Of a DNA stretch of 28,417 bases, positions 1,799 to 27,603 are shown in pieces. Source of the stretch: a virus. Positions within the stretch are counted from its first letter, which is position 1; every line of letters starts with the position of its first letter. Position numbers and translations under genes: made by a program. The stretch is taken from positions 1 to 28,417 of IMG/VR virus record IMGVR_UViG_3300008120_000254; one strand, 5' to 3'. The notes under the pieces were generated by a model. The model saw nothing but the letters and a program-made list of their open reading frames with translations. It did not search any database and had not been told where the DNA came from.

Positions 1799-4700
1799 AT
1801 GATAGCTACCCTGGCGGCGGACCTAACAACCCTGATGGATACCTAAAATATTATTATCCTTCGGCAGCTGCTGGTAATGGTGTAATTGATACCGCGACAG
1901 GTAATCTATGGGTTTACTCAGGTACGGTTTGGAATAATGTTGGTCAGATCGTTGGTCCACAAGGTCCGATCGGTTACACAGGATCGCAAGGCCTTCAAGG
2001 GCGCCAAGGCGTCCAAGGCGCAGTTGGAGCTCAAGGCGCACAGGGCGTACAAGGACCAATTGGTTATACGGGTTCACAAGGACTTCAAGGCGTTCAAGGC
2101 GCACAGGGCGTACAAGGACCAATTGGTTATACGGGTTCACAAGGACTTCAAGGCGTTCAAGGCGCGCTAGGTTACACTGGCTCGCAAGGCCTGCAGGGCG
2201 TTCAAGGCGCTGTCGGCGCGCAAGGGCCTATTGGCTATACCGGTTCGCAAGGGCTGCAAGGCGCACAGGGTGTTCAAGGTACAGTAGGCGCTCAAGGTGC
2301 GCAGGGTGTTCAAGGTCCTATTGGCTATACCGGCTCGCAAGGTCTAATTGGCTATACCGGCTCGCAAGGTCTGCAAGGCTTCCAAGGAACTCAGGGTGTA
2401 CAAGGTGCAGTAGGCGCACAGGGCGTTCAAGGTGCGTTAGGATATACTGGCTCTCAAGGATTACAGGGTGCTCAAGGGGTACAGGGAGCGGTAGGTGCTC
2501 AAGGTGCGCAGGGTACTCAAGGTCCAATCGGATATACCGGTTCGCAAGGTCTACAGGGCGTTCAAGGTGCAGTAGGTGCGCAGGGCGTACAAGGTGCACA
2601 GGGCGTTCAGGGACCTATTGGCTATACCGGGTCCCAAGGTCTTCAGGGTGCTCAAGGTCTAATTGGTTACACTGGCTCGCAAGGACTTCAGGGTGTACAG
2701 GGTGCTCAAGGCGTTCAAGGCGCTGTTGGTGCTCAGGGACCTCAGGGTGTTCAAGGCGCTACCGGTTATACTGGCTCGCAAGGCGTACAAGGCGCTACGG
2801 GCTATGACGGCTCCAGAGGCCTACAGGGTGTTCAAGGTGCAGTAGGGGCACAAGGTGCTCAGGGTGTACAAGGACCTATCGGTTATACTGGTTCACAAGG
2901 ACTTCAAGGTGTACAAGGCGCCCAAGGCGTTCAGGGGCCAATTGGCTATACTGGTTCGCAAGGCTTGCAGGGACAACAAGGCGCATTAGGTTATACAGGT
3001 TCTCAAGGTCTACAAGGCGTGCAAGGTGCTGCAGGGGCTCAAGGCGTTCAAGGCGCAGTTGGCGCGCAAGGCGTTCAAGGCGCAGTTGGCGCGCAAGGCG
3101 ATCAAGGTCCTATTGGCTACACCGGGTCTCAGGGTCTACAAGGGGTACAGGGCGCTCAGGGCGTTCAGGGACCGATTGGTTACACTGGATCGCAAGGACT
3201 ACAGGGCGTTCAAGGCGCATTAGGTTATACAGGTTCACAAGGACTGCAAGGCGCTCAAGGCATCCAGGGGGCTCAAGGCCCAATTGGCTACACAGGATCT
3301 CAAGGTCTACAGGGAGTTCAGGGTGCGGTAGGCGCACAAGGTGTTCAAGGTGCTGTTGGCGCCCCAGGAGCTCAAGGTGTACAAGGACCCATTGGTTACA
3401 CTGGATCGCAAGGTCTGCAGGGTGTACAGGGTGCCGCGGGAGCACAAGGTGTACAAGGCGCAGTAGGTGCTCAAGGCGTCCAAGGTGCCGCAGGAGCTCA
3501 AGGTCCTATTGGTTATACCGGGTCTCAAGGTTTACAGGGCGTTCAGGGTGCTGTTGGTGCGCAAGGCGTGCAAGGCGCAGTTGGTGCTCAAGGCGCGCTA
3601 GGTTACACTGGCTCGCAAGGCCTGCAGGGCGTTCAAGGCGCTGTCGGTGCGCAAGGTATTCAAGGCGCAATAGGAGCTCCAGGCGCGCAAGGTGTACAAG
3701 GACCTATCGGCTACACCGGGTCTCAAGGACTACAGGGCGTACAAGGCGCTGTCGGCGCTCAAGGCGTACAGGGCGCTATCGGCGCACCAGGCGCTCAAGG
3801 TGTTCAGGGTCCAATAGGATACACGGGATCGCAGGGACTACAAGGCGTACAGGGTGCAGTGGGCGCGCAAGGCGTACAAGGCGCAGTAGGCGCGCCTGGA
3901 GCGCAAGGCGTACAAGGGCCTATCGGATATACTGGTTCCCAAGGTTTACAGGGCGTTCAGGGTGCTGTTGGTGCTCAGGGTGTTCAAGGCGCAGTAGGTG
4001 CTCCCGGTGCGCAGGGTGTTCAGGGGCCAATAGGATACACCGGATCTCAAGGTCTACAAGGCGTACAGGGTGCAGTGGGCGCTCAAGGCGTACAAGGTGC
4101 TATCGGTGCACCAGGTGCGCAGGGTGTTCAAGGCCCGATTGGGTATACTGGTTCGCAGGGACTCCAGGGCGTACAAGGCGCAGTAGGCGCTCCTGGTGCA
4201 CAAGGTGTACAAGGCGCTGTCGGCGCTCCTGGTGCACAAGGCGTACAGGGCGCAGTAGGCGCTCCTGGCGCGCAGGGTGTTCAAGGCCCTATTGGTTATA
4301 CTGGTTCCCAGGGACTACAGGGCGTACAAGGCGCAGTAGGCGCTCCTGGTGCACAAGGTGTACAAGGTGCTGCAGGGGCTCAGGGTCCAATCGGATACAC
4401 AGGATCACAAGGACTGCAGGGTGTTCAAGGCGCAGTAGGCGCGCCTGGTGCTCAAGGCGTTCAAGGCGCTGCTGGACCTCCAGGAGCTCAAGGTGTACAG
4501 GGTGCAGTAGGCGCGCCTGGTGCTCAAGGTGTTCAAGGCGCTGCTGGACCTCCGGGCGCACAAGGTGCTGTTGGCGCTCAGGGCGTACAAGGACCTATTG
4601 GTTATACCGGCTCAACAGGTATCAGTGTCACGACTACCGCGCCTTCGTCGCCGAATGTTAATGACGTTTGGATTGACTCTGACGGTACACCACCTATAGG

Positions 4701-8141: not shown

Positions 8142-8149
8142 GATAAATA
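8142..8149 (+). promoter_or_regulatory. Possible T4-type late promoter (GATAAATA)
   Basis: GATAAATA differs at one base from the T4 late -10 element TATAAATA. It lies in the only gap of more than 25 bases in this part of the fibre cluster, and the predicted start near 8155 is 17 bases ahead of the ATG at 8172. It is the weakest of the four such elements in the window. Confidence 0.45.
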
Positions 8150-9480: not shown

Positions 9481-10115
9481 TGGCACAATTTTATACCTGG
9501 GATAGAAACGGGTTCGAAGACGCATACTGGAAGTACTTCTACAGAATTAGAGGGTGTGGTGCTTCGCATGCTAGAACGTGCAAGTGCACCGATACTTACA
9601 TATCCTATTCGCGTAACTTTTTTGACACTAATGAAATGTTTCGCGAAAGAGCTACTAAGGTAGTTAGCGCAATTTCATTACCGGCCGGCTCTTCCGTATT
9701 AGTAGTAGGGTGTGCTCTTGGTTATCTAATGGACGAGTTAAAAAAGCTTGGTATGAACTGCTATGGTATAGATAACTCTCAATATATCAAGTCTATTAAG
9801 AATAAAGAAAAAGTAAACTTTGATATAGCTGATATTAGTATTATTAGTACAAGACTATTAACTGAGTTTCAAAGAGAAGTTGGAGTAACACAATTCGACT
9901 GTATTATTACAGAAGATGTATTACCCTCTCACAACTCATGGGATAATATTTTTACTAACTGTGAAACACTAATAAAGCCAGATAAGCCAAAAACAAATAT
10001 CGTTCATATTGTAGAGACAAATGCTGCGGGTACCTTTATTAGCAAAACATTAAACCAATGGAAGCAGCTAAAACCGACACATACTTGGCTGAACCAGAAC
10101 GGAAATACTGAATGA
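9480..10115 (+). CDS. Class I SAM-dependent methyltransferase within the fibre cluster
   Basis: 211 residues. SAM-binding motif I is VLVVGCALGYL at residues 73-83, and the acidic post-motif strand is YGIDNS at 95-100, as expected for a Rossmann-fold methyltransferase. Further on, FDCIITEDVLPSHNSW (about 138-155) matches the position of the motif IV region. The N-terminal 45 residues are Cys- and aromatic-rich (C26, C34, C36) and could bind metal or substrate. No DNA-methyltransferase target motif (DPPY or PCQ) is seen, so the substrate may be protein, glycan or a small molecule. The gene overlaps both neighbours (TAATG before, ATGA after), so it is translated with fibre genes and may modify them; that is inference. 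Confidence 0.75.
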   Translation: MAQFYTWDRNGFEDAYWKYFYRIRGCGASHARTCKCTDTYISYSRNFFDTNEMFRERATKVVSAISLPAGSSVLVVGCALGYLMDELKKLGMNCYGIDNSQYIKSIKNKEKVNFDIADISIISTRLLTEFQREVGVTQFDCIITEDVLPSHNSWDNIFTNCETLIKPDKPKTNIVHIVETNAAGTFISKTLNQWKQLKPTHTWLNQNGNTE

Positions 10116-13100
10116 GCCATACTCTTGAAGCACAAGTAAAAGCTGTAAGTGTAACATCGGGTAATCTTAACCTCCCGATGAACAATATTATTAACCCTGA
10201 AGGCCACTGGTATTACTATCAGCCACTGAACGCTAATAACTCAGCTATACCAGCATCTATTGTACCATATCAGTGGGGTACTATTCTACCGCTCGTTGGC
10301 CCTGCGGATGAGCTATTGCAAATGGAAGGTACTATGCCTCTTCTAAGAGAGGTATGGAACAGCGCTAATGTATTCTACCATGGCGGTGTTAATGAACTGA
10401 TCGGCCCTGGTGTTAATGATGTAACTGCTACTCAGGAAGATGACGCGTTCTTCTTCTCACACCTTTCAGCTCTTTCAGCTGTTGCTAATACAGATGTTAA
10501 TGCTTTCTACTGGGATAGAGCATTCCAAGCGACTGATAACTTAGCAGGTGACTGGGACTTCTACCAGTACCACGCTCACCTACCAACTAACTATCCTCAG
10601 TACGAAGCGGGTAGACTTACCACCTCCGGGGGTCTGTATGTAGAGCCTACGGATAAAGCCTATGGTTATCTAATTCATACCCGCGTTAGAGTTAGCGGAA
10701 CAGACTATCAGTCTGTCATGGCACGTATTCATACCCCATCTGTCGGTGGCGCTCACAACTCCCACAATGACGTTACACTACCAACCGCTTCAAATAAAAA
10801 CTATATTATGGGCGGTATCATTAAAGGTATTGGTAATCGTTTCCATGCATTCTATATTACAGCAAATGGCTCGCAGTGGACAGTATTCAACCGTACATAT
10901 GTTCATACATCAGCATCATTTACATCGCAGGTTGAGCTCGGTACTTTCGATCTAGCTGATCCGACATTTACTCTTGGATCGACGCTTTATGATTACCCGA
11001 TGCGTGTTAGCTGCGGCGATACATTTGGTCAACGAATTTACTTCCCTGTTATTATGAATAATGCTACTTCAGGTTTTGATCTCGAGATCTGGTCATTCAA
11101 CTCTAACGATACCATCGCTGGTGGTTCACTTATACGTACCGTAATTCTCTCTGGGGTAGCTACAAGACCCGACTGTGTACTACATACTGTCGGGGATACT
11201 CTACACGCAGCTGTTACCGATGTAGCTAGCGGCGGTATTTCGTTCTATTCTACTACCAACGGTACAACCTGGGAAAATGCAACTAACCAGATTGTAACAA
11301 ACGGGTCTGCTAACCCCCTACGTATTCACGGTTTCAAGTACAACCAGCAGGATATTAATTACTATATTCTTCTTAGCGGTACCTCTACCGGTACTGGAAC
11401 ATATGACGGTCCTGGTCTTTATACATTTAAAATTCAGGGCGACTTTGCTGGTTATGATCACCTAGACTATGATCATACAACTAACTCTTTTGTAAATAAA
11501 GGTCCTCTAACAAACGGCCATATTGCATATACAAAGTCTTCGGGCATTTTAACTAGATATGCTACTCAAGAGCCAGAAGGTATCAGCCCTACAGTTAATA
11601 TTCTTAACTATACAACAGGCCCGCAAGCTATCTTTAATAAAGTTGAACTAGATCTTCAGGGCGATGAATATATCTACCAGGGTATTATTCTGCATGATGG
11701 TAGAAAGCTTCTGACCGGTCGCGTCGAAAATCTAAAGTATCGTACATATAATACTAGCAGTCTGTTAGCTATTATCAATAGCCAAGACGCCGCTACTAAT
11801 TATTCGTTTGCCTTTGATTGCATAAGCGGTGATGCTGTTGACCCTGCGCGTCCTATTGTCGGTGATAATTACATTACCGGAGTTTATCAATCACATCTGG
11901 ATGAAAATAAAATCTGGTTTACTGGTTATGGTAAGAGCGAAGTAGTACCTAAAAGGGATGTAAATATTCATGGCTACTGCCGCAATCTAACCACCGGTAC
12001 ATTTGACCGAATAGAATGGAACTCTATTGCGCTAGACTCGGCCGGAAATATCTACTGCGCTGGTTATGATGATGGTGGTCAAGTGCTTATTGCCAAGTAT
12101 TCTGTTAACTACATACTGCAATGGCAAAAGCTTATTTCCATTACCGGTTTCGATATAATCGGAAACGATATTGCTATTGATAGTGCGGGTAATATCTATG
12201 TTGCGGGTACTATCTCTGATCCTAATACACCAGGTAGTGCTCGCTCGGCGTTTGTTACTAAGTACGACTCAACAGGTACAGAGATTTGGTCTAAATCATA
12301 CAACTACAGCACTAATATTACAGCTGGGCAATCTCTAGCCTGTGTTAATAATGGTGGCACAGACTATCTTATTCTCTCAGCGACAGTTGATGTAGGCGGA
12401 TCAGTATTCGATACTGTTATAATGCAGCTGGATACTTCTGGTGCAATAGAGTCTCAAAAGGTATTAGATTCTATTTCCATTACTAAAATAAGAGATAATA
12501 ATACTAATAACGGTAGATTTATATTTGTTGGCTTTAACCACTCTACAAGTGATGCTATTTTTGGTATGGGAGATATCAACGAAAGTAGCTTTGTAAAATG
12601 GCTGGCCACTTACGATGCATCTGTAACGTTAACTGATATTACAAGAACAGCCTCCGGTGTATATGCTATTGTTGGATCTATTTCAACTAGTGCATTTGTA
12701 GCTAAAGTAACTGTTTCTGAATCACTCGGCTCGTTTACAATAACCAAGTCGTGGGCTAAAACATTAGCAACATCGTCCTATAACGCTGTTGTAGGTGATG
12801 CGAATTATATCTATTGCATTGGCACCGCAACAAGCGGCGGCACAGCTGCTATGGGCATGAACGAAGGTCTTGTTACTCGTTACCTCTCAACAGACGGTAC
12901 GCTTGATTGGCAGAATGTATTTGGCCATGATATGGACGAGGCATTCAAGAATGCTATATTTGATATCACAACAAAGAACATTATTGTTTGCGGGTATTCA
13001 GAGTCACATTCTGTTTCACGTGACGCTATTATTTTCCGTCTATCTACTAACGGTTATGGCACCGGTGTTTACCATATTGTAGGTAATGTTGGCGTACCTT

Positions 13101-14287
13101 ATTACTATGCTAAATCAGCAATTGTAGCTAGTAACGAGGCGTCTTCTATCACTCCATTATCACTTCCTTCAGAAGATACTGGTAACAGAGAAGTATCCAC
13201 ACCAACTCTAACTTATACGACAAGCTCTATTACATCTAATATATTTGACGGGTCGTATGGCGGCGATGGTGTATTCATGATGTACTTTGGCTACATTGAT
13301 CTAGTCAAAGTAGCCGAGTATCTTAACTCAGATGAATATAAAGCAAATCTAGCAGCTGGTAATCGCGTAAACTATACAGATCAGATCTGGAACTTCTGGC
13401 AAGTTGCTACAGTAGGAGATGGAACAGCTGACGATGGTAACGTATTCGGCTATGATATTATAGAAACATCAGATGGTAAAGTATACATCATTGGTCAAAC
13501 ATCCGGTGATATCGCTAAGACAAATACTGGTACTGCAGGTGTATATGACTATATCTTAGTCAAGTTTGATCCTGTTACAGAAGAGATTGAGTATTATCAA
13601 AACGGTTCGGATCTTGACGAAGAAACATATGCACTCACAGAGCTTGAGAACGGTAAGATTGCTTTCTGCGGAAGAACAACTGGTACATTAGCTAATACTA
13701 ATCTGGGCGGCTATGATATCTTCCTGGGTATCTATAACCCGGCTGATGATACGTTTGTTTATAGATCAACAGGCTCAGGGCTAGACGATCGCGGTATGAA
13801 CGTGCACGATATGGGTGCTAATACACTAGCGGTTGTTTATGGAACTTATGGCGACTTCGGAGGTACGAACTTAGGACCACAGGATGTTGGTATCGCGTTT
13901 TATAACTACGCTACAAATGCCTGGGCTAATGCATACCTAACAGGTACTACATCTGCTGACCTGTTTGATCAGAACGGTAAGCCATCAGTAAGACTAGACA
14001 ATGGTACTATTGCTATTGGATTCTCGACTGCTGGAGTCTATAATACAGATGTTGGCGCTCAAGGCTTCCTAGATATTGCTATCGCTATCTTTGATCCTGT
14101 TACTAATACATTCTATAAAGGACAAACCGGATCTCAATCTAGTGAAATCTTTACATCGGTTGATGTAAGAGGTGAGCGCGGCATCTTTACTGGATATATC
14201 TCAGGTACGTTCGGTGAGGGTATTCAGGGTATCTTTGGCGAAGGCGACGTAGTAACTGCAATCGGTGCAAAAAGTTCTTCTGCTTAA
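10112..14287 (+). CDS. Giant virion protein with beta-propeller (SBBP-like) repeats (1391 aa)
   Basis: The ATG overlaps the methyltransferase stop (ATGA). The N-terminal third (MSHTLEAQVKAVSV..., HWYYYQPLN) resembles no family I know. From about residue 630 there are blades such as IALDSAGNIYCAGYDDGG and IAIDSAGNIYVAGTIS, spaced about 50 residues apart, each followed by a (I/V)(A/T)KY strand and a W. This is the SBBP-type beta-propeller signature and runs to about 980. The last 290 residues hold a different repeat with the pattern GYD(Y/I)(I/F)L...(F/Y)(D/N)P...D..YRSTGS, also propeller-like. No signal peptide is present. The length, position and repeat folds suggest a host-binding or baseplate-fibre protein. 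It is the last gene before the RNA-gene-like gap. Confidence 0.78.
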   Translation: MSHTLEAQVKAVSVTSGNLNLPMNNIINPEGHWYYYQPLNANNSAIPASIVPYQWGTILPLVGPADELLQMEGTMPLLREVWNSANVFYHGGVNELIGPGVNDVTATQEDDAFFFSHLSALSAVANTDVNAFYWDRAFQATDNLAGDWDFYQYHAHLPTNYPQYEAGRLTTSGGLYVEPTDKAYGYLIHTRVRVSGTDYQSVMARIHTPSVGGAHNSHNDVTLPTASNKNYIMGGIIKGIGNRFHAFYITANGSQWTVFNRTYVHTSASFTSQVELGTFDLADPTFTLGSTLYDYPMRVSCGDTFGQRIYFPVIMNNATSGFDLEIWSFNSNDTIAGGSLIRTVILSGVATRPDCVLHTVGDTLHAAVTDVASGGISFYSTTNGTTWENATNQIVTNGSANPLRIHGFKYNQQDINYYILLSGTSTGTGTYDGPGLYTFKIQGDFAGYDHLDYDHTTNSFVNKGPLTNGHIAYTKSSGILTRYATQEPEGISPTVNILNYTTGPQAIFNKVELDLQGDEYIYQGIILHDGRKLLTGRVENLKYRTYNTSSLLAIINSQDAATNYSFAFDCISGDAVDPARPIVGDNYITGVYQSHLDENKIWFTGYGKSEVVPKRDVNIHGYCRNLTTGTFDRIEWNSIALDSAGNIYCAGYDDGGQVLIAKYSVNYILQWQKLISITGFDIIGNDIAIDSAGNIYVAGTISDPNTPGSARSAFVTKYDSTGTEIWSKSYNYSTNITAGQSLACVNNGGTDYLILSATVDVGGSVFDTVIMQLDTSGAIESQKVLDSISITKIRDNNTNNGRFIFVGFNHSTSDAIFGMGDINESSFVKWLATYDASVTLTDITRTASGVYAIVGSISTSAFVAKVTVSESLGSFTITKSWAKTLATSSYNAVVGDANYIYCIGTATSGGTAAMGMNEGLVTRYLSTDGTLDWQNVFGHDMDEAFKNAIFDITTKNIIVCGYSESHSVSRDAIIFRLSTNGYGTGVYHIVGNVGVPYYYAKSAIVASNEASSITPLSLPSEDTGNREVSTPTLTYTTSSITSNIFDGSYGGDGVFMMYFGYIDLVKVAEYLNSDEYKANLAAGNRVNYTDQIWNFWQVATVGDGTADDGNVFGYDIIETSDGKVYIIGQTSGDIAKTNTGTAGVYDYILVKFDPVTEEIEYYQNGSDLDEETYALTELENGKIAFCGRTTGTLANTNLGGYDIFLGIYNPADDTFVYRSTGSGLDDRGMNVHDMGANTLAVVYGTYGDFGGTNLGPQDVGIAFYNYATNAWANAYLTGTTSADLFDQNGKPSVRLDNGTIAIGFSTAGVYNTDVGAQGFLDIAIAIFDPVTNTFYKGQTGSQSSEIFTSVDVRGERGIFTGYISGTFGEGIQGIFGEGDVVTAIGAKSSSA

Positions 14288-14299
14288 AAGCCAAACTCT

Positions 14300-14307
14300 T
14301 ATAAATA
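14300..14307 (+). promoter_or_regulatory. T4-type late promoter (perfect TATAAATA) ahead of the RNA candidate
   Basis: TATAAATA is identical to the T4 late consensus, the only promoter element needed by the gp55-gp33-sliding-clamp system. With the T4 geometry (-13 to -6) the start falls at about 14313, which is the first paired base of the long stem described for the RNA candidate. This lends support to both calls. Confidence 0.75.
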
Positions 14308-14366
14308 CAGTATGGTTAAGGCTAAGGCAAACACCATTTTAACAGATAAGCCCTAGGGAAACTCTG

Positions 14367-14471
14367 ATGGATAGAATAGTAGTACAGCCCCGCGACAATC
14401 ACGTTTCTTCTCCTAAGCTAGATATGGTTGCTGGAGAAATGGTCGCCTTAGTCTTAATCAGCAGGTTTTAG
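14367..14471 (+). CDS. Possible 34-codon ORF inside the RNA candidate
   Basis: ATG at 14367, stop TAG at 14469-14471; the product begins MDRIVVQPRDNHVSS. An AGGGA about ten bases upstream could serve as ribosome site. The frame lies between a late promoter and an intrinsic terminator, so a small late peptide gene is possible. Against it, the frame runs straight through the 3' strand of the 16-bp stem and the product has no recognisable feature. I rate the RNA explanation higher. Both could be true if the RNA is a translated or regulatory leader. Confidence 0.25.
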   Translation: MDRIVVQPRDNHVSSPKLDMVAGEMVALVLISRF

Positions 14472-14474
14472 TAG

Positions 14475-14505
14475 GCTTCTTGTAATTCGACAAGAGGCTT
14501 TTTTT
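14475..14505 (+). terminator. Intrinsic terminator
   Basis: A 9-bp stem (GCTTCTTGT with ACAAGAGGC, one G-U pair) and a six-base loop AATTCG are followed directly by seven T residues. It ends just 16 bases before the next ATG. It separates the fibre cluster and RNA candidate from the head-protein block. Confidence 0.9.
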
Positions 14506-14521
14506 GTGTTCAGAGGAATAT

Positions 14522-17323
14522 ATGGACGAATTAGACGAAAAAGTATTAGACATTCAGCAGCGTCAAAAGCGCGCTCAGATCATGAGACGTTATGCGTCTA
14601 AGATCGAAAGAGCTCGTGAGATGGCTAAGAAGAGAATGGCACCAGAAGCTAATATTCGCAAGCGCGCCTTTGTAATGGCGAGACAGCTAGTACGCAAACG
14701 CGTCGCTGGACAACGCGGTGCTGAGTATGAAAAGCTAGGCCCATCAGAAAAGATCGCAATCGATCGTGCCGTAGAAGGTAAGCAGAAGCAAATTAAGAAG
14801 CTAGCATTACGTCTTATTCCTCGCGTAAAGCAAGCTGAACAAAAGCGCCTCTCTTCCTACATGAAGGGGCAGCAGCTTCAGAACCATGGCCAGAAGGAAG
14901 GTAAGTCCAAAGAATCTTCAGGTTCTTCTTCAGTTAAAGAGAGCCTAAACACCCTATTTAACGAAGCATTTCCGCCAGGTGATACCTCCAATGTAATGGG
15001 TCAGAATGTAGCTACACCTGTATCCCAAAACAGTAAGAAGATGCCGGCTAAGGATAAGTCGAAAAGCTCTGAAATTATTCAGCATAACAAGTTTCAAGAA
15101 GAAGTAGAGCTCGATACACCAGCATTTGCTGCCCTATTTAAGAAGTCAGATAAGTCTGGTGTTGATATAGAGATACTTGGTGAAGTTTACAATCGTGGTT
15201 GGAATACATGGACAGAGAGCTGCAAGGTATCTCAGCAGCAGTATGCTTTCGCTCGTGTTAACTCTTACATCAATCAAGGTAAGACATACTTTAATGAAGA
15301 TAGCGATCTTCATGGTGAAGAACTTAACGAACTTACTGATGAAGAAAAAGCAAAGCGTCTTGCTTTAATTAAGTACTATGTCAAAAATAAGACCACAAAA
15401 GTACCTGAAGGCCGCGCAAAAGGTGTTTTACCAAAGGGCAAGAATCAATTTGCTTCAAAAACGATTGGTAAGTTTAACAAGTATAAAGGCAAAGGTGGGA
15501 GTGGCGCATTAGCCAACACAGTTAGTAGAAAAGCAGTTATCGGGGAAGATCTAGATCTAGATGAAGGTCGTGCACCCCGTGAAGGTAAGATCGTTCGCTA
15601 TAAGCGCCCTGACGGCTCAACGGCTCTTAAGTCACTTAATAAGTGGGGTAAGAGAAAGGACTGGAGAGATTCAGAAGGCGGCCTTGCCAAGGCTAAAGAG
15701 CATGCCGGTGTAGATAAGGTACATGAAGATATTCAGATTGATGAAGTTTCAAAAGCTACACTAAAGTCATACTCCCAAAAAGCTGAGAAACAGACTCGCG
15801 GCAATCAACCTCACGGTGCAGATGCTCTAAGAAAGCGCACTAATCGTGAGAAGGGTCTAAAGGCTGCATATAACAAGTATTATGGTTACAAGACCAAGGT
15901 ACCTGCTACTGAGGAAGTCCAGATTGATGAAATGGGTGGTGATCAGCACTACTCAGATACTAGAGGTGCTACATCTGGCGGCGCTAAGGGTACTCCTATC
16001 ACACGCAAGAAAGCTGCTAAAGACGCAACCGCTACTCTTAACAAAGCGTTTAAGAAAGAGGTACAGCAGACCAACGAAAATTTTATTGACGGGAAGGGCC
16101 CAGGGAAGCCCGGGGACTCAGCCCGTCATGGTTTAAAGGGTAAGTCAGCCGCTGAACTCAGAAAGATTCGCTCTTCTGATACAGCATCTCCTCGTAAGAA
16201 GCAACTAGCTCATTGGCTGCTTAATATGCATCACAATGAAGAAACAGAGCTTGACGAGAAGCGTGGTCTATGGGATAACATCCATGCTAAGCGCGCTCGT
16301 ATTAAAGCTGGTTCAGGTGAGCGTATGCGTAAGCCAGGATCTAAGGGTGCACCTACAAAGCAAGACTTTAAGGACGCTCAAGAGTCAGTTCAAGAATCCT
16401 ATAATGTAAACGATAAGCATTACAAGGCTCTTACAGATCTAGATCTGAATACCAAGAACCGTGACATGACTACAAAGCATGACGGTTATGGCCCGCTTAA
16501 TCCTTTAGATAAAAAGGGCTCGAAAGCTTTCTGGGAAGATAAAGCTAAGATGTGGAATACTACCACAGAAGCTGCTATGGAAGCACGTTGCCGCAACTGC
16601 GCTGCATTTAACCAGGCTCCAGCTATCATGAAGAAGATGGCCGAAGGACTTGGCCCTGCAGGTGAAAAGATTCAAGATCTAGCTAACCTCGGCTTCTGTG
16701 AGCTGTTCGAGTTCAAATGCGCAGGTGAAAGAACTTGCAATAAGTGGCTAGTCAATGGTCCTATTACAGAAGAAGATACAGGTAACGGTACAAGACTAGT
16801 TGATAAAGAGTCAAAGAACTCTAAGGCTCGTAAGAAAATCGAAACTGTAGATCGTAAGCCACCGCATACCGAATATACACGTCAAGCTGAAATCAAGACT
16901 AAGGTTATTGATGAAAACAGCACATGCCCTATCTGCAATGGTAAGGGATGTAAGTGTAGTGGTAACTCGCAAAACGATCCTAAGAAGCGTCTTATCGGCA
17001 CCGACTCACTAGTCAAAGCATATAAGAAAGATACTCCGTTTTCGGAATCACTAGATGAGTCTTTCAATATTGCTTTTGCAGCTGGTATCGGTGTTACACT
17101 AACAGCCGCTGATCTCGGTATGAAAGCACAGAGCGGTTTTGCTTATCATCCATCTGTAATTGAAGAGATGGATGAAGTAGAAGAAGAAGTAAGATCAGCT
17201 GATTATAAAGGTGTTATAGTAAGAACAGCATCGGGTAAAACAGTTGTGCGTAAACAAAAAGTTGATCGTAAGATTATTGGTTCAGGCAATTTAACAGATG
17301 GACAGCCAGATGATACGGTTTAA
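14522..17323 (+). CDS. Large Lys/Glu-rich, probably head-internal protein with LDE/IDE repeats and Cys clusters (933 aa)
   Basis: I choose the ATG at 14522 (GAGG five bases upstream); an in-frame TTG at 14504 lies in the terminator T-run. Residues 1-115 are a basic helical domain (Arg/Lys about one third) with RKRVAGQRGAEYEKLGPSEKIAID, a block common in T4-like marine phages. The rest is low-complexity and charged, broken by motifs of the form (L/I)xE: LNEL near 265, LDEG, IDEVSKATLKSYSQKA near 405, IDEM near 468, LDEK near 577, LDES. These resemble T4 prohead protease sites. Cys clusters C690/C693/C726/C733/C739 and C802/C805/C810/C812 could bind iron-sulphur or zinc. Likely role: a prohead core or packaged internal protein, perhaps cleaved. 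The function is inference. Confidence 0.7.
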   Translation: MDELDEKVLDIQQRQKRAQIMRRYASKIERAREMAKKRMAPEANIRKRAFVMARQLVRKRVAGQRGAEYEKLGPSEKIAIDRAVEGKQKQIKKLALRLIPRVKQAEQKRLSSYMKGQQLQNHGQKEGKSKESSGSSSVKESLNTLFNEAFPPGDTSNVMGQNVATPVSQNSKKMPAKDKSKSSEIIQHNKFQEEVELDTPAFAALFKKSDKSGVDIEILGEVYNRGWNTWTESCKVSQQQYAFARVNSYINQGKTYFNEDSDLHGEELNELTDEEKAKRLALIKYYVKNKTTKVPEGRAKGVLPKGKNQFASKTIGKFNKYKGKGGSGALANTVSRKAVIGEDLDLDEGRAPREGKIVRYKRPDGSTALKSLNKWGKRKDWRDSEGGLAKAKEHAGVDKVHEDIQIDEVSKATLKSYSQKAEKQTRGNQPHGADALRKRTNREKGLKAAYNKYYGYKTKVPATEEVQIDEMGGDQHYSDTRGATSGGAKGTPITRKKAAKDATATLNKAFKKEVQQTNENFIDGKGPGKPGDSARHGLKGKSAAELRKIRSSDTASPRKKQLAHWLLNMHHNEETELDEKRGLWDNIHAKRARIKAGSGERMRKPGSKGAPTKQDFKDAQESVQESYNVNDKHYKALTDLDLNTKNRDMTTKHDGYGPLNPLDKKGSKAFWEDKAKMWNTTTEAAMEARCRNCAAFNQAPAIMKKMAEGLGPAGEKIQDLANLGFCELFEFKCAGERTCNKWLVNGPITEEDTGNGTRLVDKESKNSKARKKIETVDRKPPHTEYTRQAEIKTKVIDENSTCPICNGKGCKCSGNSQNDPKKRLIGTDSLVKAYKKDTPFSESLDESFNIAFAAGIGVTLTAADLGMKAQSGFAYHPSVIEEMDEVEEEVRSADYKGVIVRTASGKTVVRKQKVDRKIIGSGNLTDGQPDDTV

Positions 17324-17588: not shown

Positions 17589-18029
17589 ATGGAAGAATTA
17601 ATTGAAGATCTTAAGAAGGTGTTTGCTGCAAACTACGCTTTCTATCTAAAGGCCCAATACTATCACTGGAACGTAGAAGGTCCAGATTTCCCTCAGTACC
17701 ATGAGTTCTTTGGTAGCCTTTATCAAGAAGTAGGCGGCGCAATCGACTCAATGGCTGAGCATATTAGAGCGCTAGATGCATATGCGCCTGGCTCATTTAA
17801 ACGCCTGGAAGAGCTATCATTTATCGAAGGTGATGATACTATTCCTACTGGACTTGCTATGGCCGCAAAGCTTCTCGAGGATAATGATAAACTCACACCA
17901 ATGCTTATCGATGTTATGAAGAAAGCAGAAAGTGTTGATAGATACGGTACAGCTAACTTTATACAAGATAGAATCGAAGCTCATAGAAAGCATGCTTGGA
18001 TGCTTCGTGCGATAACAAAGAGAGTCTAA
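17589..18029 (+). CDS. Dps-like ferritin (DNA protection during starvation family)
   Basis: 146 residues, near the usual Dps length (150-180) but with a short N-terminal tail. The diagnostic segment KAQYYHWNVEGPDFPQYHEF spans 21-40, and IDSMAEHIRALD spans 52-63. By alignment with E. coli Dps, the ferroxidase ligands His51, His63, Asp78 and Glu82 correspond to H26, H38, D53 and E57, all kept. The Asp67 position is G42, so iron binding may be altered. The family forms 12-subunit cages that oxidise and store iron, and many bind DNA. An AAGGAAGTAAA ribosome region precedes the ATG. It sits between probable head-internal proteins; it may protect DNA in the infected cell or the virion, which is not shown here. 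Confidence 0.88.
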   Translation: MEELIEDLKKVFAANYAFYLKAQYYHWNVEGPDFPQYHEFFGSLYQEVGGAIDSMAEHIRALDAYAPGSFKRLEELSFIEGDDTIPTGLAMAAKLLEDNDKLTPMLIDVMKKAESVDRYGTANFIQDRIEAHRKHAWMLRAITKRV

Positions 18030-20357: not shown

Positions 20358-20365
20358 TATAAATA
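20358..20365 (+). promoter_or_regulatory. T4-type late promoter (perfect TATAAATA)
   Basis: An exact match to the T4 late element. It starts two bases after the upstream stop codon, with a predicted transcription start near 20371. A GGAGAAG ribosome site and ATG at 20400 follow. Together with the terminator at 20990 it makes the next gene a single-gene unit. Confidence 0.75.
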
Positions 20366-20399
20366 AAATAGTGTAAACACTTTTATTGGAGAAGAAGAA

Positions 20400-20984
20400 A
20401 TGGCTCTATGGGGCAAAAATGACTCGGCAGCAGACTCGACTAAGTTTGCTCCAGCACAAGTAAACAGAACACCAAATGCGGCTAACCGCACAACCCTTTT
20501 CGGCAATACATCGACAGGTGTATGGCAGAACGGTGGCGTTGCTATGAAGAAGGCTGTAGGTCAGTTCGGCGTATCGGCTGCAGAAGCTACCAACACTACC
20601 GGTGAAGGTAAGAAGGTTGCTCACGCAGGTTGGAATCTCAGAACAGCTGGTGTTGGTCCTCTTGCATCAATCACAATTGCTGCAGCTGGTACACTTTACG
20701 CTAACACCAACACATTCTCGGTAGCAGCAGGTACAGGCGGTACAAATGCAACCGGTAACGTTGTAACAAACGCTTCGGGTAACGTTGTTTCGTTTTCGAT
20801 TACAAACAGTGGCGCTAACTTCAACTCAGCAACACCTACTGTAACGATTACTACATCGACAGGCTCAGGCGCATCGCTTACAGCAAGAGCCGGTGGCCGC
20901 GCGGGCCGTGTGCAGTATGAGACACTCGTCGCAATGGGATCCATCACTGGTGATGCATCCGACGACACACTACTCCCTGAATAA
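20400..20984 (+). CDS. Abundant virion structural protein, possibly a head decoration protein (194 aa)
   Basis: Starts MALWGKNDSAADSTKFAPAQ behind GGAGAAGAAGAA. The N-terminal 80 residues hold a block ending KKVAHAGWNLRTAGVGP; the middle (about 88-155) is rich in Thr, Gly, Asn and Ala and beta-like, with ITIAAAGTLYANTNTF and VTITTSTGSG repeats. The C-terminus, RAGRVQYETLVAMGSITGD, is a signature I associate with structural proteins of T4-like marine phages. Having its own consensus late promoter and a UUCG-loop terminator, as well as a strong ribosome site, points to high expression. I therefore suggest a decoration or other high-copy virion protein. The exact position in the particle is not known to me. 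Confidence 0.75.
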   Translation: MALWGKNDSAADSTKFAPAQVNRTPNAANRTTLFGNTSTGVWQNGGVAMKKAVGQFGVSAAEATNTTGEGKKVAHAGWNLRTAGVGPLASITIAAAGTLYANTNTFSVAAGTGGTNATGNVVTNASGNVVSFSITNSGANFNSATPTVTITTSTGSGASLTARAGGRAGRVQYETLVAMGSITGDASDDTLLPE

Positions 20985-22128: not shown

Positions 22129-22647
22129 ATGTTTGGTATGATTCCTTTCCCGGTGAAAATGTTTGCTATAATTTTTCTTATTGCTGGTGCTGCTGGGTGG
22201 GGATATATGAAGGGTTCTTCCCACGCCGAGGTTGAACTGGCCAATTATAGAGCAGACGCTGAAAAGCAAATATCAGATCTTAAGACTGAAAATATTAGAA
22301 TATCTGATAACGTAGTAACAGAATATATTGACCGTACAAATACTATTCGTGAAAGAGAAGTAATCTATCGTCAAGCTGCAGGTGGTTTACAACCTCAGTA
22401 TGATCTCTCAAACGGATGGATACATCTACATGACGCAGCTGCTAGATTAGCTAATCCTGATATGCAGCTGGCTTCTGACAAATCACCATCAGGTGTAATG
22501 GATAACGCAGCTCTAGCCGTAGTTATGTCTAACTACGCTATTTGTAGACAAAACAGCGAGCAGCTAACTTCATTACAGAGATGGATTACAGATAACAGAG
22601 CGGCCATTGAAGCAGCAAACCTTAAAGCTCAAAAAAAGGGAGATTAA
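22129..22647 (+). CDS. Rz-like inner-membrane spanin (i-spanin)
   Basis: 172 residues. Residues about 8-26 (PVKMFAIIFLIAGAAGWGYM) form one N-terminal membrane segment. A long, charged, probably coiled periplasmic region follows (AEVELANYRADAEKQISDLK...). The C-terminal third contains MSNYAICRQNSEQLTSLQRWI, the pattern typical of Rz proteins (Y..CR.N..QL..L..W). I-spanins bridge the periplasm by contacting an outer-membrane lipoprotein and complete lysis after holin and endolysin act. A matching lipoprotein lies two genes downstream. Endolysin is not seen in this window. Confidence 0.78.
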   Translation: MFGMIPFPVKMFAIIFLIAGAAGWGYMKGSSHAEVELANYRADAEKQISDLKTENIRISDNVVTEYIDRTNTIREREVIYRQAAGGLQPQYDLSNGWIHLHDAAARLANPDMQLASDKSPSGVMDNAALAVVMSNYAICRQNSEQLTSLQRWITDNRAAIEAANLKAQKKGD

Positions 22648-24327: not shown

Positions 24328-25371
24328 ATGTTGTGGTTGGACACAAAATACATCAATCTGCTATCGTTTAGACTGCGTAACTTTAAACGCAAGGGGAACG
24401 ATTCGTGGAACTTCTCTTGCCCGTTCTGCGGCGATTCTAAGACAAATAAGCATAAAGCGCGAGGCTATATCTTTGAGCGTAAGGGTAAGCTGCGTTTCTA
24501 CTGTCATAACTGTAACATCCCTGGTGTGACTGTACCTAAGCTAGTTAAGCATCTCGACCCTATGATGTACGATGAGTATGTCAAAGAGAAGCTTATGGCA
24601 GATCCCGAGAAGAAGGAAAAGACTGAACTGCAGGAGTTCGTCGATAAGATGAAACCACCTGTGTTCGTTAAGTCATCGCCTCTTAAACACCTTAAGAAGA
24701 TCTCTCTATTCAAGCCATCATCTGCTGTAAAGATGTGGATTGACGCACGTAAGATTCCTGCAGAGAGCCACTACAGGCTGTTCTTCTGTAAGGAGTTTAA
24801 GCATTGGGTTAACGAGTATTGTATACCGAATAAGTTCGATGAAGACTCGCTAACACGCGACGAACCTAGATTAGTTATACCCTTTCTCGATGAAGAAGGC
24901 AACTTGTTTGGATTTCAGGGTCGTTCGTTTAAGAAGAATGCTAACGTTCGCTATATCACTATCATCCTAGACGATAGTAAGCCTAAAGTGTTTGGGCTTG
25001 ATAAAGTTAATGTTGAACTTCCGCATATATATGTGGTAGAGGGTCCTCTGGATAGTCTCTTCCTACCCAACTGTATCGCAAGCTGCGGTTCAGATCTTAC
25101 TACCAGTCTCCATCGCGTTGTAGATGATAAGTCGAAGTTCATTATTGTTTATGACAATGAGCCGCGTAATGAAGAGATTGTAAAGAAGATCGAGAAGGCT
25201 ATTGCTGCTGGTTATGATGTCTGCATCTGGCCAGATACTATGGAAGAGAAAGATATAAATGATATGGTACTAGCTGGTTATAACCCGGCTAAAATTGTTG
25301 ATATTATTAATGAAAACGTCTATAGTGGACTTAAGGCTAAGCTTCGCTTTAGTGAATGGAAGAAAGTATAA
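24328..25371 (+). CDS. 61: DNA primase, T4 gp61-like
   Basis: 347 residues. A zinc-ribbon lies at residues 31-62: CPFC (C31, C34) and CHNC (C59, C62), preceded by FKRKGNDSWNFS. The TOPRIM catalytic core is near 233-300: IYVVEGPLDSLFL supplies the invariant Glu, FIIVYDNEPRNEE the Asp pair region, and KDINDMV the last acidic motif. PRLVIPFLDEEGNLFGFQGRS is the usual primase strand block before it. The length is close to T4 gp61 (342). It makes RNA primers for lagging-strand synthesis together with the gp41-type helicase, which is not in the window. A sigma70-like promoter lies just upstream. The stop overlaps the next ATG (TAATG). Confidence 0.92.
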   Translation: MLWLDTKYINLLSFRLRNFKRKGNDSWNFSCPFCGDSKTNKHKARGYIFERKGKLRFYCHNCNIPGVTVPKLVKHLDPMMYDEYVKEKLMADPEKKEKTELQEFVDKMKPPVFVKSSPLKHLKKISLFKPSSAVKMWIDARKIPAESHYRLFFCKEFKHWVNEYCIPNKFDEDSLTRDEPRLVIPFLDEEGNLFGFQGRSFKKNANVRYITIILDDSKPKVFGLDKVNVELPHIYVVEGPLDSLFLPNCIASCGSDLTTSLHRVVDDKSKFIIVYDNEPRNEEIVKKIEKAIAAGYDVCIWPDTMEEKDINDMVLAGYNPAKIVDIINENVYSGLKAKLRFSEWKKV

Positions 25372-26759: not shown

Positions 26760-26935
26760 GTGATGATTTAGACTTGACAGTAGATGAAGCTGTAGATGCC
26801 GTTGCTGGGATTTACTGGCAAGATATCATCCAGGGTGTAGCTGACAGAGATATCGATAAGGTATATGATGCAGCGATCTTGTTGAAGGCTACACAAGCCA
26901 CACGCGTTAAAATGAAGGCATTGTTCGAACAATGA
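26756..26935 (+). CDS. Small acidic helical protein (59 aa)
   Basis: It starts at the ATG that overlaps the preceding TGA (ATGA) and stops in a TGA overlapping the ThyX ATG. The product, MSDDLDLTVDEAVDAVAGIY... ILLKATQATRVKMKALFEQ, is short and acidic at the front. It is just under the length usually reported for ORFs. Function unknown; tight coupling to thyX suggests co-expression, not necessarily a shared role. Confidence 0.7.
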   Translation: MSDDLDLTVDEAVDAVAGIYWQDIIQGVADRDIDKVYDAAILLKATQATRVKMKALFEQ

Positions 26936-27603
26936 GTGAAGTGAATCTAATTGGCATCACAAAGCCATCCGCATATACCGATTGCGCAACTGCTAACGAA
27001 CTCGTTGCTTGGGCAGCTAGAGTTTCTAATCCGTCTAACCAGAACAACACACTTACAGCACCGAAGCTTGTTCAATTTCTCATTAGAGAAAATCACTGGT
27101 CACCGCTGGAGATGGTCCATGTATCAATGGAAATCAAAACCACAAGAGACATTGCCCGCCAGATCTTGCGGCATCGTTCTTTCTCATTCCAAGAGTACAG
27201 TCAGCGTTACGCTGATCCAACCAAGGATCTTGGATTTGTTAGACGGGAAGCCCGACTGCAAGATACTAAGAATCGGCAAAACTCGATCGAACTGGGACCT
27301 GACGAAAACCGACTGGCCGAAGAATGGCAAGTAATGCAGCAGTCTGTTATTAATGCTGCTAAGATGGCCTATCAATGGGCCACTGAGCGTGGTATTGCTA
27401 AGGAACAAGCTCGAGCTGTTCTCCCTGAAGGAAATGTGGAATCAGTCGTTATCATGGCTGGTTCGCTACGTAGTTGGGTCCACTATTGTCAGCTACGTAT
27501 GGATAAAGCAACACAAAAAGAACATCGCATCGTAGCAGAACAGTGCTGGGAGATTATCTGCCATCACTTCCCCGATGTGAAAAAAGCTCTCGAATCAATT
27601 TAA
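26932..27603 (+). CDS. thyX: Flavin-dependent thymidylate synthase
   Basis: 223 residues. The ThyX signature RHRSFSFQEYSQRY spans 80-93 and fits the family motif RHRxxSxxxxSxRY. HWSPLEMVH at 55-63 and ARAVLPEG at 160-167 are the other expected family blocks. The enzyme makes dTMP from dUMP with FADH2, NADPH and methylenetetrahydrofolate, without producing dihydrofolate. T4 itself uses the unrelated ThyA-type synthase (td). The ATG overlaps the upstream stop (ATGA). A phage thyX raises the dTMP supply during DNA synthesis and fits the neighbouring replication genes. Confidence 0.95.
   Translation: MSEVNLIGITKPSAYTDCATANELVAWAARVSNPSNQNNTLTAPKLVQFLIRENHWSPLEMVHVSMEIKTTRDIARQILRHRSFSFQEYSQRYADPTKDLGFVRREARLQDTKNRQNSIELGPDENRLAEEWQVMQQSVINAAKMAYQWATERGIAKEQARAVLPEGNVESVVIMAGSLRSWVHYCQLRMDKATQKEHRIVAEQCWEIICHHFPDVKKALESI

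Follow-up and report, generated by a model that had tools for sequence, protein, structure and literature searches.

In phage T4, the proteins gp43 and gp32 each bind a hairpin or pseudoknot in the leader of their own mRNA and thereby repress its translation (PMC3014915), and a glutamine riboswitch (glnA RNA) has been reported in the T4-like phage Melnitz (PMC9004378). The locus described here is a 234-base gap (14288-14521, plus strand) in a 28,417-nucleotide stretch of viral DNA, positions 1 to 28,417 of IMG/VR record IMGVR_UViG_3300008120_000254, hereafter the window. Like the operators of T4 genes 43 and 32, it holds a structured leader RNA of a single gene, placed at or near the ribosome-binding site, in the same broad phage group. 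In contrast to those operators, its loop sequence is different, the motif occurs in two tandem copies behind a late promoter, and binding by the gene product is presumed. The gene served belongs to DUF5824/phrog_23027 and is neither gene 43 nor gene 32, which argues against homology to the T4 operators, and the clade of the window further adds a leader open frame, a long stem and a terminator. With leader-peptide transcription attenuators the locus shares a promoter, a short open leader frame, alternative structures and a terminator before the structural gene. Unlike them, it has no bases shared between terminator and antiterminator and no run of a regulatory amino acid, and it precedes a phage late gene. 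The phi29 pRNA, the packaging-motor RNA of another phage group, is also a compact structured RNA encoded by a phage, whereas the RNA described here contains an open frame, leads one gene and matches nothing in Rfam. The Melnitz glnA RNA is likewise a structured cis-element of a T4-type aquatic phage, but the present element lacks an Rfam match and precedes a different gene.

At gathering thresholds, Rfam 15 (including phi29 pRNA and the glutamine riboswitches) gave no match in the window and just one tRNA across 12 related loci, as expected from the original prediction that the RNA resembles no known family. At a permissive threshold, the best sub-threshold match, to PyrR (18.3 bits against a cut-off of 54), was set aside as noise explained by the terminator. 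Likeness to hammerhead, pistol and mini-ykkC RNAs was considered and dropped because the conserved core letters are absent and Rfam gave no match; CsrA-type ANGGA sites were dropped because the hairpins of classes A and B (defined below) read GGG or GGC. As far as openly accessible papers go, no description of this hairpin leader family was found. The element appears to belong to a new, previously uncatalogued leader family that precedes one late gene across many T4-type phages and probably controls it.

Two copies of one hairpin motif

The T4-type late promoter TATAAATA lies at 14300-14307 on the plus strand, an exact match just where it had been predicted. Exact copies number two in the window against 1.9 expected by chance; a perfect late promoter is unremarkable on its own, and what carries the case is that nearly all related loci keep it directly 5' of the hairpins. 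The second exact copy lies in the interval 20358-20400, 35 bases 5' of the gene at 20400, and near-matches occur at 8142 (GATAAATA) and 18631 (AATAAATA).

Downstream of the promoter, hairpin H1 (AUGGU-UAAG-GC-UAAG-GC-AAAC-ACCAU; 14312-14337, plus strand) is followed by hairpin H2 (CAGA-UAAG-CC-CUAG-GG-AAAC-UCUG; 14343-14366, plus strand). Thermodynamic folding of the isolated piece gives exactly H1, and both hairpins are supported by covariation and by covariance-model matches. H2 contains the Shine-Dalgarno-like sequence AGGGA, and its 3' end abuts a start codon at 14367. Judged by their shared pattern of letters, H1 and H2 are paralogous copies of one motif, a stem around a 16-nt loop of the form UNAG-NC-YNMG-GN'-AAAC. 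Across 47 distinct hairpins, loop positions U1, A3, G4, C6, G10, G11, A13 and C16 are invariant, partly by construction, since the regular expressions used to gather the set fix much of the loop and leave the stem pairs unconstrained. The inner pair is always Watson-Crick (G-C in H1, C-G or U-A in H2), and at the stem pairs next to the loop as many as five pair types occur. When H1 and H2 are pooled, 97.4% of cells in these 47 hairpins are paired, with a covariation score of 0.725 against at most 0.103 for slid partners; it is the slid-partner control, not the shuffle controls, that corrects for relatedness, and its margin is large. A covariance model built from the leaders of classes B and E only, with the lineage of the window excluded, recovered window positions 14312-14367 at 57.9 bits (E = 3e-14). 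Of the 30 whole records searched, 28 have the motif essentially once, and covariance-model searches of whole records agree; the apparent second H1 core seen in two genomes was rejected as located within coding sequence. Four relatives have an extra perfect or near-perfect hairpin between promoter and H1 (L104 at 4494-4516, L108, L113, and L117 at 255-278), for example GCAAGAACAGTTCTTGC.

Leader architectures and linkage to one gene

Related loci were collected by scanning IMG/VR for patterns taken from the conserved letters, and they differ in architecture. Class A, the type of the window, has H1, H2, a short frame, the long stem and the terminator, then the gene. In class B, H1 and H2 stand directly 5' of the gene and the conserved start codon is the gene's first codon; class D has H1 only, class E has H1 and H2 with other stem letters, and classes C and F have H2 only. 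In most lineages the hairpins are a plain 5' leader with no intervening terminator, which undercuts the original prediction's argument that the segment could hardly be a leader for its downstream neighbour. Every one of the 116 loci with the hairpin motif has, directly downstream, a homologue of the 933-aa protein encoded in the window (E ≤ 5.5e-8); several of the 116 entries are copies of the same contig, and the loci were gathered mostly by DNA pattern. The upstream neighbour varies and lies on the same strand as the element, and the constant presence of the downstream gene may in part reflect synteny. In locus L003, for instance, the next gene encodes a protein 57% identical to that of the window. 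A different gene lies upstream there, and still the full 234-base segment can be recognized, with promoter, start codon and terminator. This linkage, together with the position of H2, which in classes A and B immediately precedes the start codon, is like that of a T4-type operator, a structured leader element of a single gene near its ribosome-binding site.

A tree of the basic domain of the downstream protein places class A in one well-supported group (99/96) that also holds L054, a locus of the direct-leader form, and on this tree the carriers of class A appear to be essentially one lineage with that one exception. Three loci (L100, L101 and L110) have just the last 29 nt of the leader, from H2 to the start codon, after a CTAAATA promoter-like sequence and before a distant homologue of the gene. 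The idea that in L104 and L108 the element precedes unrelated genes was dropped, as the homologous domain is present in both products, behind additional N-terminal modules.

BLAST against named phages with a 1-kb region and three versions of the leader gave nothing useful, and named-phage relatives were reached through protein search. The cultured Stenotrophomonas phage DLP6 has a weak covariance-model match (E 0.08-0.10) directly before a cytidylyltransferase gene whose product contains the same basic domain (profile E 1.6e-25). In Sinorhizobium phages phiM12 and phiN3, an H1-like hairpin, recognized by inspection and giving no match to the covariance model, precedes the homologue. It is followed by the GGAG of the ribosome-binding site, for which a CUCC further upstream is a possible pairing partner. 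Two pattern scans of bacterial genomes yielded no real match; a single match in Saprospiraceae was rejected because it lacked the promoter and the context.

The gene served by the leader (14522-17323, plus strand) encodes the 933-aa protein, with DUF5824 and a conserved, helical and very basic N-terminal domain (phrog_23027) modeled with a pLDDT of 83.6. A search of PDB folds with this domain gave no significant match and no recognizable RNA-binding fold. In several lineages (classes D-F) the gene product opens with a nucleotidyltransferase-like domain, which precedes the shared basic domain; the protein of the window has no nucleotidyltransferase domain. Upstream, the 1391-aa protein (10112-14287) has SBBP beta-propeller repeats (Pfam E 4.6e-9) and no match among named phages, and relatives have other genes at that place. 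Elsewhere in the window, PHROG and Pfam identify a DNA-binding protein (phrog_3636; 17589-18029), an Rz-like spanin (22129-22647), a DNA primase (24328-25371) and a ThyX thymidylate synthase (26932-27603). Around the element in L032, L054, L104 and L120, proteins start with M-x-x-F-x-x-F-I/L-x-E and have many EEVELDE-like stretches, features that we take to be reminiscent of T4 capsid-targeting sequences and prohead-protease sites. This suggests a cluster of internal head proteins.

Long stem, leader open frame and terminator

The window lineage adds a long-range stem, P1, in which the 5' arm TGGTTAAGGCTAAGGC (14313-14328, plus strand) forms 16 pairs, two of them G-U, with the 3' arm GCCTTAGTCTTAATCA (14445-14460, plus strand). 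The stem had been predicted in this form and appears in the minimum free energy (MFE) fold of 14300-14510, together with the terminator as a separate hairpin and an inner continuation in which CCAUUU (14334-14339, plus strand) pairs with AAAUGG (14437-14442). This continuation, which bears out the inner helices of the original prediction, also forms in duplexes from relatives. The MFE is -61.8 kcal/mol against -48.9 ± 4.5 for shuffled sequences (z = -2.85), none of 200 being as low. In the 16 class A sequences compared, window included, the two arms of P1 pair at -26 to -41 kcal/mol (mean -34.0) against about -13 for shuffled arms, which never approached the native value (0 of 300 for each sequence), and swapping arms between relatives lowers the mean pairing strength to -28 kcal/mol. 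Folding and covariation analysis of relatives, the check originally proposed, showed the long stem retained in 17 divergent relatives. The consensus structure of a 17-sequence class A alignment contains P1, H2, a further hairpin P3 and the terminator, with 94.6% of cells paired, 11 of 37 pairs changed on both sides and a covariation score of 0.241 against at most 0.102 with slid partners. P3 (14408-14438, plus strand), found in the RNAalifold consensus, pairs UUCUCC (14408-14413) with GGAGAA (14433-14438) around the conserved AAGCUAGA; it is nearly invariant in relatives and gives little covariation signal.

Since the 5' arm of P1 overlaps H1, the two are alternative folds. When folded as a growing transcript, the RNA forms exactly H1 and H2 at 40-60 nt, retains both to 120 nt and forms P1 from 150 nt. 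The intrinsic terminator, a hairpin with a tract of seven T (14473-14505, plus strand; stem about 14473-14500), ends at 14505 as predicted and is kept in 17 of 17 class A sequences, with 6 of its 11 pairs altered on both sides; its T tract is weaker in some relatives (L015, L060 and L087). P1 excludes H1 but has no bases in common with the terminator, and both coexist in the MFE fold. The locus therefore has no classical antiterminator, and any control of readthrough must come from ribosome occupancy.

Between promoter and terminator, the start codon at H2 opens a leader frame that was absent from the original prediction (MDRIVVQPRDNHVSSPKLDMVAGEMVALVLISRF; 14367-14471, plus strand; 34 codons and a stop), the end of which contains the conserved and co-varying 3' arm of P1. 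The frame is open over 32-48 codons in 17 of 17 class A sequences, most with gaps that are multiples of three, whereas the other two frames are mostly closed earlier. In 16 of the 17 its stop codon coincides with the terminator edge to within about -4 to +11 nt; in L098 the frame runs past the terminator and overlaps the start codon of the next gene. The peptide itself is poorly conserved, with an overall pN/pS of about 1.17 over codons 2-26 and a pN of 0.359 against a pS of 0.168 in the first 12 codons; the P-K-L-D region, in contrast, has a pN of 0.118 and a pS of 0.244. In L113 and L117, the RNA letters of P3 and P1 around GGAGAAATGGG persist in a shifted frame, so here it is the RNA rather than the peptide that is conserved. 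A frame that stays open while its peptide is poorly kept suggests that selection seems to act on openness, not product. The P-[KQ]-L-D stretch of the peptide resembles the N-terminus of class B proteins, and the leader frame may be a split-off N-terminus of the downstream protein.

Proposed control of the late gene

We lean towards reading the segment as the 5' leader of the gene at 14522, with H1 and H2 as its cis-acting control element and an attenuator-like arrangement in the window lineage. The promoter, hairpins, alternative folds, open frame, terminator and strict gene linkage are read from the sequence; binding, leader-frame translation and conditional readthrough are what we infer from them. 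In the direct form, H2 lies on the ribosome-binding site and start codon of the gene, and bound H2 would block initiation. The likeliest binder of the hairpins would be the gene's own very basic product, in autogenous control, because its helical basic domain and the hairpins are the constant pair across lineages and because T4 gp43 and gp32 provide precedents. In the window lineage, where the start codon at H2 opens the leader frame instead, the same input would decide whether that frame is translated. During transcription, H1 and H2 would fold first. Ribosomes on the leader frame would then cover the 3' arm of P1 and stop at the terminator edge, allowing polymerase to read through to 14522; were initiation blocked, P1 would close over both hairpins as well as the start codon, with transcription ending at 14505. 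Alternatively, the terminator may simply be constitutive, with the downstream gene then read from upstream transcripts.

Other readings account for parts of these data. A stand-alone, trans-acting late small RNA, starting at 14313, ending at 14505, folded by the long stem and unrelated to the next gene, would explain why promoter, end-pairing stem and terminator are all conserved in the 17 class A sequences. However, elsewhere the same hairpins directly lead the same gene family with no terminator, the linkage holds in every one of the 116 loci while upstream neighbors vary, and a conserved start codon and open frame traverse the segment, making this reading improbable. Of the structured late RNA gene originally proposed, what stands is a structured RNA with its own late promoter, terminator and compensatory changes; a dedicated RNA gene is unlikely, given the linkage and the frame inside the segment in all class A sequences. 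That frame could instead be the point of the transcript, a small late mRNA for a 32-48-residue peptide with hairpins and stem as signals for its expression or stability, as its openness, its mostly in-frame gaps and the constrained P-K-L-D region would suggest. We consider this unlikely, since pN/pS exceeds one overall and pN exceeds pS in the first 12 codons, the C-terminal part is frame-shifted between relatives while the RNA letters are kept, and the same start codon begins the large protein in other lineages.

The remaining two accept the segment as a leader. In one, the leader is constitutive: the hairpins merely protect the end of a late mRNA and aid ribosome loading, and the long stem and terminator are by-products of how the local genes are ordered. 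The hairpin at the extreme 5' end of the predicted transcript, the late promoter and the Shine-Dalgarno-like sequence in H2 are what this would predict, but loop conservation across hairpins and lineages (eight invariant positions) far exceeds the needs of stability, the motif occurs at one place per genome and the long stem is kept with compensation, leaving little room for it. In the other, the element is a tandem-aptamer riboswitch that senses a ligand, the nucleotidyltransferase-type N-termini fused in classes D-F hinting at one of nucleotide type; its two near-identical structured tandem loops, cis position and switchable alternative fold are compatible with this. It is nevertheless very unlikely, as the gene in the window has no nucleotidyltransferase domain, Rfam gave no riboswitch match, single-hairpin versions are common and late phage genes are atypical targets.

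Returning to the control element that we favor, we tentatively propose that the tandem 16-nt-loop hairpins could be a new class of regulatory RNA for a single late gene in T4-type phages. In one clade, a translation-level operator could have become a translation-coupled transcription switch by way of a split-off leader frame, a long closing stem and a terminator. Little is known of post-transcriptional control in phage late genes, and this widely conserved family of structured RNA seems not to have been described there before; it is tied, with no exception in the loci examined, to one uncharacterized gene family. As related hairpins stand ahead of a homologue in the cultured phages phiM12, phiN3 and DLP6, the binder of the hairpins is directly testable, and the evolution of one leader architecture from another can be followed here.
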